From Bacilli bacterium (lineage in GTDB: Bacteria; Bacillota_I; Bacilli_A; Haloplasmatales; Haloplasmataceae): a stretch of DNA of 37,619 nucleotides. Under the pieces are notes generated by a model that was given only the letters and a program-made list of their open reading frames with translations, was not told the origin of the DNA and did no database searches. The stretch lies in contig JAAYWZ010000075.1 in the NCBI GenBank assembly GCA_012516175.1, positions 1 to 37,619 on the forward strand, given 5' to 3'. Below are positions 24,535 to 31,601 of the stretch, one piece after another (positions within the stretch are counted from its first letter, which is position 1; each line of letters begins with the position of its first letter). A program made the position numbers and the translations under genes.

Positions 24535-26007
24535 CTATAAAATTATGGCTATTAATCCACCCGTTCCTTTGTTGATTACTTTTTCTAAAGTTTCCCGGAT
24601 TTTTTGGCGTGCTTGTTCTGGTAAAATGAATAATTTTGCATTAATACCGTCAATCACCAGAGACTCTAAGGAGCGTCCAAAGATTTCTTTTTTCCAAACT
24701 GAACTTGGGTTCTTTTCATAATCACTCATCAAGTAATTGATTAGATCTTGACATTGTTCTTCACTACCAATGATGGGTTCAAAGACACTATTGACTTCAA
24801 CCTTAATCATATGAATGCTTGGGGCAATCGCTTCTAGTTTAACTCCAAATCTTCCACCTTGTTTCGTTATTTCTGGTTTCTTAAGTTTCATGTCAACTGT
24901 TCTTGGAGTGGCAATACCGTAACCTGTTTGTCTTACCATTTGGAGCGCACTCGCAATACTATCGTATTCTAACTTGGCATCGCGATAATCTTGGAGTAAG
25001 GCGATAAATTCACCACGATCATCAATTTTATGTCCAATGATTGATTCAAGGATTTCATTATACAATTCATCCTTGCAGGTAACGGTAACTTCTGCATAAC
25101 CCTTACCAGCATCGACATTTGTGAGCTCTACACTACTTATGTATTCGTTATCCCGTAGAATATCAACTATTTTATCTACTTCTCGCAGTTTTTGATAATC
25201 ATTGGTGAGATTATGAATCACATTGTCAAATTCATATTTGACAGGATGATCATTCTTTAATACGCCAATCCAACTTGGTACTTTAATATCTAATTCCTTG
25301 ATTTTAAATTCATATAAAGCTTCTCTTAACACATTTGTAACATCATCTAAAGTCATCTTTTCTACAGATAAAGGAATAACAGGTACTTCATATTTTTCTA
25401 CTAAAGCATCTTTTAAACTTAAGGTTTCTGCTTTTTGGGGATGACGACTGTTAAGGATAACTATAAAAGGTTTATCGAGTTTCTTTAATTCGTTAATTGT
25501 TTTCTCTTCAGCTTCGACATAGTCTTCCCGCGCAAAGTCAGAGACTGAACCATCAGTAGTCATCACAATCCCAATTGTGGAGTGGTCTTCGATTACCTTT
25601 TTCGTACCAATTTCTGCCGCCTCTTTAAAAGGAATAGGGTCTTCAAACCATGGTGTGTGCACCATGCGGGGTGTATCTTCTTCCATATAACCTTTGGAGT
25701 TAGGTATCACAAAACCAACACAATCAACTAAACGGACCCTAACATCTAAATCATCTAATTTAACTGTGACAATTTGGTTAGGGATGAACTTAGGTTCCAC
25801 CGTCATGATGCTTTTGCCATCACCAGCTTGTGGTAATTCATCAACAAGGCGTCTATACAAGTTTTCGTCATCAACATTTGGCAAAATCAATGTTTCGACA
25901 AATTTCCGAATAAAGGTCGATTTCCCCGAACGTACTGGTCCGACCACTCCTAAATAAAGTGAACTATCAGTACGTTCAATGATATCCCGAAGTACTCTTT
26001 CGCTCAT
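24535..26007 (-). CDS. spoIVA: Stage IV sporulation protein A, coat-basement ATPase
   Basis: Self-assembling ATPase that forms the platform for the spore coat on the forespore surface. Walker A GPVRSGKSTFIRKF near residue 25, Walker B-like VRLVDCVGF, then the middle region and the C-terminal membrane-targeting part ending INKGTGGLIAIIL, nearly the same end as in B. subtilis. 490 residues. Start ATG 26007, with GAGGAG 4 nt upstream; the GTG four codons earlier lies in the ribosome site. It is a clear marker that this organism makes endospores. Confidence 0.98.
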   Translation of the reverse strand: MSERVLRDIIERTDSSLYLGVVGPVRSGKSTFIRKFVETLILPNVDDENLYRRLVDELPQAGDGKSIMTVEPKFIPNQIVTVKLDDLDVRVRLVDCVGFVIPNSKGYMEEDTPRMVHTPWFEDPIPFKEAAEIGTKKVIEDHSTIGIVMTTDGSVSDFAREDYVEAEEKTINELKKLDKPFIVILNSRHPQKAETLSLKDALVEKYEVPVIPLSVEKMTLDDVTNVLREALYEFKIKELDIKVPSWIGVLKNDHPVKYEFDNVIHNLTNDYQKLREVDKIVDILRDNEYISSVELTNVDAGKGYAEVTVTCKDELYNEILESIIGHKIDDRGEFIALLQDYRDAKLEYDSIASALQMVRQTGYGIATPRTVDMKLKKPEITKQGGRFGVKLEAIAPSIHMIKVEVNSVFEPIIGSEEQCQDLINYLMSDYEKNPSSVWKKEIFGRSLESLVIDGINAKLFILPEQARQKIRETLEKVINKGTGGLIAIIL

Positions 26008-26038
26008 ATTACTCCTCACTTTCTAATATCCTCACAAT

Positions 26039-27453: not shown

Positions 27454-28761
27454 CTATTCACGCACTTTGGTTATAATCTTAATGGGTGTGCCTGTAAACT
27501 CAAAATTCTCGCGGATTTTGTTGTCGATGAAACGTTCATAGGAGAAATGCATAAAGTTAGGGTTATTTACAAACAACACAAAGGTTGGTGGTTTAACACT
27601 TACTTGGGTTACATAATAGACTTTGAGTTTACCCCCATTATAGGTTGGTGCGGGATTAAGACTTACCGCATCTAAGATTACTTCATTTAAGACATTCGTA
27701 GTGATGCGGCGTTCGTAATTAACTGATACTTGCTTAATCGCTTCAAATAAGGTATGGATACGTTTTTGTTCCTTAGCACTGACAAAAACAATAGGGGCGT
27801 AATCGAGAAATTGAAATTCACTACGAATATTTTTTATCCATTCATTCATCGTATTTGTTTCTTTCTTAATCGCATCCCATTTATTAACACAGATAATAAC
27901 ACCTTTATATGCATTATGAGCATATCCTGCAATGCGTTTATCATATTCTATGATACCTTCTGTGGCATCTAAAACAATGACACAAATGTCGCTTCGTTCA
28001 ATCGCAGACATCGCTCTTAACACACTATATTTTTCTGTAGTTTCATAAATCTTACCACGTTTACGAAGTCCCGCAGTATCAATAACCACATATTTTTGTC
28101 CATCTCTGGTAAATGGTGAGTCGATAGCGTCTCTTGTAGTACCAGCAATATTACTTACTATAACCCTATCTTCTCCTAAAATAGCATTAGTAAGTGAAGA
28201 TTTCCCGACATTGGGTCTTCCAATGAAACAGAACTTAATCGTATCCTCAGAATATTCCTTTTCTGATTTTTCTGGCAGCATGATGATGACTTTATCTAGC
28301 ATATCACCAAAACCAATACCATGTAGGGAAGAAACGCCAACTACATCCTCAAATCCTAAACGATAAAACTCATATACATTATCGCGATAACTTACATCAT
28401 CGACTTTATTAACCGCTACAACTACCTTTTTCTGAGCGCGATATAAGAGTTTAGCGACATACTCATCATCGGGAGTTACACCTTCTCTAGCATCACACAC
28501 AAATATAATCACATCTGCTTCATCAATCGCGATTTCCGCTTGATACTTGATTTGGTCAATTAAAGGCTCATCGCTTACCTCAATACCACCTGTATCAATA
28601 ATGTGAAAGTGCCGACCTAACCATTCAGCTTTCGCATATATACGGTCTCGGGTTACTCCAGGGGTATCTTCCACGATTGAGATTCTTTGGCCAACAATCC
28701 GATTAAAAATAGTGGACTTCCCACAATTGGGACGTCCAACAATCGCTACAACTGGTAACAT
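27454..28761 (-). CDS. der: Ribosome-assembly GTPase Der (EngA)
   Basis: Double GTPase needed for 50S assembly. First G domain with GRPNCGKST, second with GRPNVGKSS near residue 180 plus DTAGLRKRG and NKWD, then the KH-like C-terminal domain. About 435 residues. Start ATG 28761 after AGGTGA. Stop is TAG, which shows TAG is a normal terminator here. Between cmk-rpsA and gpsA. Confidence 0.98.
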
Positions 28762-28770
28762 TCTGATCAC

Positions 28771-30837
28771 CTATTCTTGTTTGTTACCCAAAAGTTCCTT
28801 TAATTTATCCCCAAACAAATCTCCTAAAGTATCATTCTTAACTTTTTCTTGTTCACGCATATACTTCAAGAATTCTTCTCGTTCAGCATCTTCAGCTACT
28901 CTTCTGATACTAACTACTAGTTTACGTTCTTCAGGGTCAAATTCAGTAACTTTAACAGTAACAACTTGTCCAACTGCCAAGACATCATCAGCTTTAGTGA
29001 TGCGTTTTTCACTAGAAACTTGATTCTTAGGGAGTATTCCTTCAACATCTTCCACGAATTCAACAATCGCATCACCATTATCAAAGCCTTTAACAGTTAC
29101 TTCAACAACTTTACCTTGTTTTAATCCACAAGTAGTCCATGGATTAGTTTTTAATGCTTTAACTGATAATGAAAGTTTTTCTTTATTGGCATCAATCTTA
29201 ACTACTTTGACTTTAATCTTTTGTCCTACTTCAATATGATCAAACATATTGACATTAGGATTATATGAAAACTCATTTTTATGTAATAGGCCATCAACAA
29301 ATGGATAAATATTAACGAAAGCACCAAAACCAGTAATTCTGACGATTGTACCTTCGATTACATCGCCTTCTTTAACATTTTGGGCAACTACTTCCCAAGG
29401 TTTAGGTAGTAAGGCTTTAATTGAGTAAAGTACTTGGAGTTTATCATCATCTTTTTCAATAACTTTGACATTAACCTTATCACCTATCTTGGCGACTTCT
29501 GATATATCATTAAAAGGTAAGTGGGATATTTCTTTTAAAGGTACTAAACCTTGATAATTGTTCGCTACAATTAATAAACCATAATGTTCAACACGAACAA
29601 CTTTTCCTTCATAAACAGCATCAAGTTTAATCTGCTTATAATTATGGAGTTTTTCTTTAAATAACTCAGCCGCAATTACTGCACGACGGGAAACAACAAC
29701 TTTTTTGTTTTCAAATTTAATTACACGTACCTTCACTTGTTGATTAAGTAGGCTTTGTACATCAAATTTTGCGTCTACATCAACTTCATTCTTAGGCATA
29801 AGACAATCAATGCCATAAATATTAACGATAAGAACCGTATCTTTAATTTCAGTAACTTTGCCAGTGATGATATGTTTATGATAGAAGTTTCTTTCTAATT
29901 TACGTAATGCTTCTTCTTTTTCGAGGTCAAGACGGGATAATAATGCGACTTCATCATCGATTTTCTTAATGACAGCCTTAATCTTGTCCCCCACTTTATA
30001 TAGTTCTTTACAAGATTGGACATCAGGATTAAGAGTTAATTGGTTTAAGTAAATCTTTCCTTCCGTCATGTAATTAAAATCAACTAACACTTCATTGTCT
30101 GTTACTTGGACAACAGTACCTTTTACAACTTGTCCTTCGTGGTAATTAGAGATTTCATATAGATCTTTTTCGCTCATACTAGCCACCTTCCCTAAAATTA
30201 TCTCTATTAGTTTATCTACTACCTCATCCACGGTGAGTGAAGATGTATCAATTTCATAAGCATCAGGTGCTTTAACCAATGGATTTAAAGTGCGATTAAT
30301 ATCAAGATAATCGCGTTGCATGATTTCTGCTTTAATTTCTTCCATGCTTACATCTTGATTTTTATCTTTAATTTCTAAATATCTACGTCGTGCTCGTTCT
30401 TCAACAGAAGCAGTAATAAAAAACTTAAGTGTTGCATCCTTTAAGACATTCGTTCCGATATCCCGACCATCCATGATGACATTGGCATTTTGCGCAATCT
30501 TTCTTTGCATGGACACTAGTTTATCACGTACGATTTTTAACGAGGATACAATTGAAACATTATTAGAAACTTCCCGTGATCTAATTTCTTGGGTAATATC
30601 TTCACCATCTATATAAACCCTATCATCAGGAGTGAGTTCCAATTTAGTGTTATCTAAGAAGGTATACTCCGTTTCATTGTTTAGATCAATATTTAGTTTT
30701 AGTGCTTTATAAGTAATAGCCCGATACATCGCACCTGTATCTACATATACATAATTAAGTTTCTTCGCAAGTTTCTTCGCAATGGTGCTCTTACCGGCGC
30801 CAGCTGGTCCATCGATTGCGACACTTATATACTTCAT
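28771..30837 (-). CDS. cmk-rpsA: Fused cytidylate kinase and S1-domain ribosomal protein
   Basis: Residues 1 to about 218 are a complete CMP/dCMP kinase (P-loop DGPAGAGKSTIAKKLAKKL, VDTGAMYRAIT, MDGRDIGTNV, RRYLEIKD). Without any stop codon the frame continues into about 468 residues with five S1 RNA-binding domains (starting near residues 232, 320, 400, 487 and 570), like the RpsA/YpfD protein encoded next to cmk in B. subtilis. The junction I-L-G-K-V-A-S-M-S encloses a good ribosome site (GGAAGGTGG, 5 nt before ATG 30177), so free S1 protein could also be started internally. Stop is TAG. AGGAGG precedes the cmk ATG. Confidence 0.92.
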   Translation of the reverse strand: MKYISVAIDGPAGAGKSTIAKKLAKKLNYVYVDTGAMYRAITYKALKLNIDLNNETEYTFLDNTKLELTPDDRVYIDGEDITQEIRSREVSNNVSIVSSLKIVRDKLVSMQRKIAQNANVIMDGRDIGTNVLKDATLKFFITASVEERARRRYLEIKDKNQDVSMEEIKAEIMQRDYLDINRTLNPLVKAPDAYEIDTSSLTVDEVVDKLIEIILGKVASMSEKDLYEISNYHEGQVVKGTVVQVTDNEVLVDFNYMTEGKIYLNQLTLNPDVQSCKELYKVGDKIKAVIKKIDDEVALLSRLDLEKEEALRKLERNFYHKHIITGKVTEIKDTVLIVNIYGIDCLMPKNEVDVDAKFDVQSLLNQQVKVRVIKFENKKVVVSRRAVIAAELFKEKLHNYKQIKLDAVYEGKVVRVEHYGLLIVANNYQGLVPLKEISHLPFNDISEVAKIGDKVNVKVIEKDDDKLQVLYSIKALLPKPWEVVAQNVKEGDVIEGTIVRITGFGAFVNIYPFVDGLLHKNEFSYNPNVNMFDHIEVGQKIKVKVVKIDANKEKLSLSVKALKTNPWTTCGLKQGKVVEVTVKGFDNGDAIVEFVEDVEGILPKNQVSSEKRITKADDVLAVGQVVTVKVTEFDPEERKLVVSIRRVAEDAEREEFLKYMREQEKVKNDTLGDLFGDKLKELLGNKQE
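30178..30190 (-). promoter_or_regulatory. Internal ribosome site before the S1 half of cmk-rpsA
   Basis: Minus strand GGAAGGTGG, 5 nt before an in-frame ATG (30177-30175) at codon 221 of the fusion. It reads as the former start region of a separate rpsA gene that is still usable. Confidence 0.6.
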
Positions 30838-30845
30838 GGCTCCTC

Positions 30846-31601
30846 CTATAAGTTTCTAAAGAATTCGAGAATCACTTCACGGTTTACATAAACTGCCAAG
30901 ATGCTTAACACAATAATAATGATAATCACTAGCACGGGTGACATCTTATATGTAGTTCTACCCTTCGTTTTTTTATCATTATCATTTGTTTTATCTTCAA
31001 CAACAGGATTTTCTTCTTCTTTTTCAACTAAGTCTAAGTTTAGTTCTTCTTCTTGGGTTTCATTAATAATTTCTTTAATATTCTGTTCAAACCTCGAATC
31101 ATCATATTGAATATTCTTAGAATTATTACTTATATCATCAATTAAGTTTAATAAAACGGTACGTTGGTCTTTTGCACTGAAGATTTCTTGTTCTGAAGTT
31201 TTGATAATTTCATCAATATTGATTTCTTCAGAATTAACAATTGCTATTTCTTGCTTAACAGGTTCAGTCATAACTTCTTCTACAACTTCCATCTTCTCTA
31301 CTTCCTCAACTACATCTTCTTCGATTTGTGGTATATCTCTTATTAAGGTTTGTCGCAACTCCAGGAGTTTATCTTCAAGCGGAGAGATTGCACTAGATTT
31401 AACCAACCGTTCATAATTCTTTAAGCAATCTATATATGAATTAGTAGATTCATTTGAGTTCGACAAATTCACCCGAAAACTCCTAGTAATTTTCGCTAGA
31501 TGCATGTCAATTGAAATATCATTATCAATGATATCTGTATTGCTCTTTCTAAACATATGGGGCATTCTTATTATATTAATATAAGCTTGCTTATCTTTCA
31601 A
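30846..31601 (-). CDS. Tail-anchored acidic protein, unknown function
   Basis: I recognise no family. The 251-residue product has a soluble N-terminal part (about 1-100), a long strongly acidic, Glu-rich middle (EEDVVEEVEKMEVVEEV and similar runs, about 95-210), a short basic patch (KKTKGRTTYK) and a single C-terminal membrane helix (about 224-242, VLVIIIIIVLSILAVYV) with a short tail. There is no signal peptide, so the bulk should face the cytoplasm. TTG start 31601 with AAGGGTGA upstream. It is directly followed by cmk (8-nt gap, the cmk ribosome site overlaps its TAG stop), so the two are cotranscribed. An acidic tail-anchored layout suits a membrane scaffold; no more can be said. Confidence 0.75.
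   Translation of the reverse strand: MKDKQAYINIIRMPHMFRKSNTDIIDNDISIDMHLAKITRSFRVNLSNSNESTNSYIDCLKNYERLVKSSAISPLEDKLLELRQTLIRDIPQIEEDVVEEVEKMEVVEEVMTEPVKQEIAIVNSEEINIDEIIKTSEQEIFSAKDQRTVLLNLIDDISNNSKNIQYDDSRFEQNIKEIINETQEEELNLDLVEKEEENPVVEDKTNDNDKKTKGRTTYKMSPVLVIIIIIVLSILAVYVNREVILEFFRNL

Follow-up and report, generated by a model that had tools for sequence, protein, structure and literature searches.

The locus raises the question of whether a single reading frame that joins a cytidylate kinase to an S1-type ribosomal protein gives one protein or two. We analysed a stretch of 37,619 nucleotides (the window), in which an earlier note had described cmk and rpsA as forming one 688-codon frame. 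It turned out that no stop codon separates the kinase from the five-domain S1. A change in the genetic code was rejected, since the frame contains no stop needing read-through. The Shine-Dalgarno sequence GGGAAGGTGG does lie 5 nt upstream of an in-frame ATG at the junction, as had also been proposed (Table 1). The masses were recomputed as 78.1 kDa for the fused kinase-S1 and 53.2 kDa for free S1, compared to the approximately 77 and 52 kDa expected earlier. The source genome (2.26 Mb, 207 contigs, 99.4% complete) contains one match above the cmk cut-off and one full-length S1, and each of them is the fused frame. Therefore, this frame is apparently the sole source of both CMP kinase and S1 in the genome.

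Table 1. Parts of the fused cmk-rpsA frame and its translation signals, in coordinates of the window
Feature	Position	Strand	Basis or remark
Fused cmk-rpsA ORF	28771..30837	-	688 codons, ATG start, without internal stop
Cytidylate kinase part, residues 1-220	30178..30837	-	Pfam PF02224 and TIGR00017
Shine-Dalgarno AGGAGGAG of cmk start	30840..30847	-	Duplex energy -10.2
Internal Shine-Dalgarno GGGAAGGTGG of rpsA, within the fused frame	30183..30192	-	Duplex -11.8
Internal ATG, codon 221	30175-30177	-	In frame with cmk
Free S1 frame from internal ATG	28771..30177	-	468 aa, predicted 53.2 kDa
S1 domain 1, residues 237-301	29935..30129	-	AlphaFold2 secondary structure
S1 domain 2, residues 323-383	29689..29871	-	AlphaFold2 secondary structure
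S1 domain 3, residues 408-472	29422..29616	-	AlphaFold2 secondary structure
S1 domain 4, residues 493-558	29164..29361	-	AlphaFold2; Pfam S1 488-560
S1 domain 5, residues 577-643	28909..29109	-	AlphaFold2 secondary structure

Downstream of the fused frame lie der, gpsA and spoIVA. The der gene probably starts at ATG 28761 rather than at GTG 28770 (duplexes of -13.0 and -3.8, respectively), and the Shine-Dalgarno sequence AGGTGATC of this ATG overlaps the rpsA stop codon (window 28761-28773). A full-length SpoIVA with all three Pfam domains is encoded downstream of gpsA (24535-26019), pointing to sporulation genes in this member of the Haloplasmataceae. Upstream of cmk, 8 nt separate the end of a 251-aa frame (30846-31601) from the cmk start. 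The product of this frame has a hydrophobic stretch near the C-terminus, and no Pfam or NCBIfam family matched it at E 0.001.

The kinase part scores above the cut-offs of the cytidylate kinase family. The Pfam Cytidylate_kin domain spans residues 6-214 (E 9e-73; 244.9 bits against a cut-off of 26), and the TIGR00017 cmk model is matched at positions 2-215 of 217 with 242 bits against 135.55. This part aligns over its full length with the solved CMP kinases 1q3t and 2h92. In the alignment, it retains the P-loop, MDGRDIGT and RD..D..R motifs, which we take to be the catalytic motifs of cytidylate kinase, and most of the motif positions are invariant among 22 aligned fused proteins. CMP kinase activity is predicted for this part.

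Homology of the C-terminal part to E. coli S1 is clear from the alignment (E 1e-63), in which the residues after Met221 align from E. coli residue 10. Pfam recognizes S1 in four stretches, and the AlphaFold2 model of the fusion (mean pLDDT 85, pTM 0.43) contains five OB folds after the kinase. According to PMC6705787, a five-domain S1 is known from Haloplasmatales. The NCBIfam rpsA equivalog cut-offs are not reached (PRK06676, 310 against 368; TIGR00717, 304.6 against 577); because of this, we call the part S1-like, or a putative bS1. In the model, the S1 domains appear well formed and their mutual arrangement is not fixed. The model is flexible exactly at the junction, where residues 221-226 form the only stretch with a pLDDT below 50 before the C-terminal tail. 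In E. coli S1, the N-terminal segment that anchors the protein to the ribosome contains two conserved Phe (PMC4288201). These anchoring Phe are absent from the first residues after Met221 (MSEKDLYEI), that is, the anchoring segment of the E. coli type is missing. The sequence thus lends no support to a need for free S1 in ribosome binding.

To estimate Shine-Dalgarno strength, we calculated the duplex with the 16S tail in kcal/mol. Among the 23 in-frame ATG, GTG or TTG codons past codon 5 of the fused frame, the best duplex is found at codon 221 (-11.8), and the next reaches -6.0. The internal rpsA site is stronger than the cmk start's own (-10.2). In 30 other ORFs of the window, none of the 170 internal in-frame ATGs reaches -11.8, and two reach -9. 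The mRNA around the junction is not weakly structured in the source genome (MFE -9.9, with 76% of its own windows weaker). In this, it is unlike most of its relatives, since the junction mRNA of the fused relatives is weakly structured (the median share of windows in a gene with less structure than its junction is 2.9%).

We compared eight genomes of the Haloplasmataceae, including the source genome; a search at the level of the order returned the identical eight. The gene is fused in five of them (G000, G003, G005, G001 and G007) and split in three (G004, G006 and G002). Hence the stop codon at the junction of all relatives, which the earlier note had set as the case against its proposal, was not found, and the fusion is not a local error. 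All five fused junctions carry the identical run ATT TTA GGG AAG GTG followed by nnn nnn ATG, that is, by 6 nt between GTG and ATG. This gap is 7 nt in G004, 7 nt in G006 and 8 nt in G002, so that in the first two the gene is split by a spacer that is one nucleotide longer from the ribosome site to the start of rpsA. It follows that fusion and fission are about one nucleotide apart. One genus (g4) contains both states, with G005 fused and G004 split.

Beyond the family, we surveyed 296 genomes of the class and ran family searches over 13, 55 and 15 genomes. Fusions were found in four more families (f5, f14, f16 and f21). In the class survey, whose first look scored three candidates per genome, at least 43 of the 296 genomes are fused: five in the Haloplasmataceae (f1), ten in f5, one in f14, 18 in f16 and nine in f21. 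A phylum-level search, whose genomes were of the same kind as those of the class survey, gave no new group with fusions. At E 1e-20, 38 of the 296 class genomes had no Cmk-S1 match, and family f10 accounts for 19 of the 20 that were listed, which suggests that Cmk and S1 are very divergent or missing in that family.

Junctions were studied in 128 distinct genomes, of which 65 are fused, 62 are split and one was dropped. The latter (L073, G107, of f16) has an apparent split adjoining a run of N, which is probably an assembly gap, and it was excluded from the counts. This set is not random, as the families with fusions were deliberately searched again, and five f16 genomes of the class survey are not part of it. 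The fused genomes comprise five of f1, 11 of f5, one of f14, 18 of f16 and 30 of f21. Both states occur in genus g64 of f21, and the single fused genome of f14 has six split sisters in g94. This recurrence bears on the suggestion that two normal genes were joined artificially, through an error of sequencing or assembly. The 207 contigs of the source genome would allow such an error, but the fusion is present in the other fused family members, one of them assembled in two contigs, in the single-contig genome G164 of another family, and in 65 genomes in total. For the class as a whole the error is refuted, and we rejected it as the explanation of the fusion, leaving it a practically negligible chance.

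All 65 fused genes have an in-frame ATG 5-8 codons past the aligned kinase end with a duplex of -6.3 or stronger, and in 63 of them the duplex is -7.4 or stronger. The latter value is reached by 3.6% of 660 other internal ATGs and by 20 of 1022 control windows. The junction ATG was the best one within a range of 36 codons, a choice for which the control windows allow. It might be supposed that the f16 fusions lack an internal start. We rejected this, since in 18 of 18 the ATG directly follows the kinase, and the long linker lies 3' of it. The linker, which is mostly acidic and about 50-245 codons long, separates the junction ATG from S1, and free S1 would therefore carry it at its N-terminus. 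In one f16 genome (L072, G114), a unit of about 15 residues (VEETVV.Q.EVQDPK) is repeated in tandem within the acidic Cmk-S1 linker.

The codons of the site are conserved beyond what the amino acids demand. The junction Arg is AGG in 11 of 11 f5 genes and in 22 of 23 f21 genes, when AGG makes up 2.9% and 4.5% of Arg elsewhere in the genes of these families. In f16, the junction Arg is AGA, not AGG, in 18 of 18. The f1 codons GGG, AAG and GTG are each present in five of five genomes against backgrounds of 10.4, 19.4 and 7.0%. As a control that respects ancestry, we determined codon identity among the Arg columns with an invariant amino acid. The junction Arg is the sole codon-identical column among 14 in f5, among 13 in f16 and among 13 in g64; the g64 value refers to the nine ER-type genomes of 12 fused, the fusions L137, L138 and L141 with other junction peptides being left out. 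In g148, it is one of two codon-identical columns among 23. The Arg test is inapplicable to g112, where the junction reads KVG without Arg and each of the 16 Arg columns with an invariant amino acid uses more than one codon; the junction Lys there is AAG in eight of eight, while GTA/GTG and GGT/GGA vary. In four divergent f1 genomes, the junction run is the longest codon-identical one (five codons, the next being three), when 29.7% of 353 columns are codon-identical overall.

The frozen junction peptide is GKV, ER, KR or KV depending on the lineage. Since the peptides differ, it is the nucleotides and not the peptide that are conserved, and this freezing at the nucleotide level makes it very probable that the internal start is in use and under selection. 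A conserved in-frame ribosome site with a start codon is thus present inside the frame, and the usable internal ribosome site claimed in the earlier note gains strong support from the comparison of genomes. Part of the conservation is inheritance, because the split relatives share the rpsA site. It is for this reason that the internal Shine-Dalgarno could be a mere relic of the former rpsA start, with the fusion protein as the sole product: the site is clearly inherited from the split state. But a relic would hardly keep its codons frozen where other invariant codons vary, nor would both site and ATG be retained in every fused gene, and we consider this explanation quite improbable.

The same stretch might act on elongating ribosomes, pausing or frameshifting them so that some stop after the kinase and release free Cmk. 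A stop in the third frame does follow closely after the site in all five fused family members. By eye, no slippery sequence is seen at the junction, and the ATG and the start-like spacing, both unnecessary for frameshifting, are also conserved. We therefore rejected programmed frameshifting, and an action on elongating ribosomes as a whole seems to us very improbable.

To trace the history of the fusion, we built a quick maximum-likelihood tree (LG+G4) of 127 genomes, rooted arbitrarily on f11. At least 11 changes between the fused and split states are required. With this root, and at equal costs, parsimony gives four gains (f1, f14, f5+f16 and f21) and seven losses, numbers that depend on both choices, and part of the losses may instead be additional gains. 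Support for joining G004 and G001 is weak (61). At least four lineages carry the fusion, which has repeatedly been lost. These numbers bear on whether the fusion itself is selected, with a CMP kinase tethered to S1 so that CMP or CTP recycling is linked to the binding, decay or translation of mRNA. Whole clades are fused, as would then be expected (29 of 30 tree genomes of f5+f16, 10 of 10 of g148 and 8 of 8 of g112). In addition, no separate kinase was found in the source genome and the frame has no intervening stop; all cmk translation runs into S1, and therefore, short of cleavage of the protein, any kinase activity would be attached to S1. Against this stand the seven losses compared to four gains and the variable spacing, with the acidic linkers of f16 set between kinase end and S1. 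It is unlikely that the fusion is what selection maintains. No support was found for the link that the earlier note proposed between translation and the recycling of CMP released by mRNA decay, and the repeated losses speak against a coupling that cells require.

We prefer the explanation that selection acts on the internal ribosome site and not on the fusion, and assign it a probability of about 0.82. The cmk stop in the short junction of a cmk-rpsA pair would have been lost when about one nucleotide changed. Ribosomes starting at the cmk site would then read through and make the 78-kDa CMP kinase-S1, and ribosomes starting at the retained inner rpsA site would make free S1 of 53 kDa. As the S1 supply is kept under its own site, the fusion would be tolerated and could easily arise and revert. 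We infer the use of the internal start, the existence of both products and the activity of the fusion protein from sequence comparison. It is also conceivable, though doubtful, that the fused frame has repeatedly been used as a selected two-output gene, with all CMP kinase on S1 and free S1 tuned separately. If this is true, the ratio of fusion to free S1 could vary with growth, and pyrimidine recycling could be localized to mRNA or ribosomes through the RNA-binding protein that carries the kinase.

The locus and its relatives form a natural series in which one gene pair is either fused or split, sometimes within the same genus, and conservation at the nucleotide level speaks for survival of the inner start after fusion. 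This raises a testable question: is gene fusion nearly free when the downstream gene retains its own ribosome site? Annotation of such a frame as a single "bifunctional protein" would hide a second product, a ribosomal protein, and counts of S1 taken from these annotations may mislead. In open-access papers, we found no Cmk-S1 fusion described outside Treponema, no paper on gene fusions with internal ribosome sites and no conserved inner start in Cmk-S1 fusions. What is new here is the recurrence of the fusion, its reversibility and the conserved internal start, the fusion as such being already annotated in Treponema pallidum.

By name, the T. pallidum protein joins the same two proteins in a single frame (PMC3373638 and PMC3570794). 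It comes from a spirochaete and is annotated with 829 or 863 residues, against 688 here, a comparison of annotated lengths. The IspH-S1 fusion (NF000907) likewise places a metabolic enzyme in front of a multi-domain S1. Its enzyme is IspH, and our protein matches it through residues 202-519, onto the S1 part of the model, with 339.9 bits, below the cut-off of 624. In the Cmk-Der fusion (NF007071), Cmk is joined to a neighbouring translation-related gene, and der adjoins here too; our score of 167 bits is below the cut-off of 953, and Der has a separate frame (27454-28770). The two-polypeptide phage endolysins (PMC9430671) also use in-frame overlapping frames, where an internal start in a single frame gives full-length and C-terminal products with a common stop. 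In that case both products of one enzyme gene were shown experimentally, whereas here the gene is a cellular fusion and its products are predicted. Finally, cmk followed by rpsA is an old gene neighbourhood (PMC1173090). It is the ancestral arrangement, with cmk first, and, unlike the fusion, it has a stop that keeps the two genes apart.
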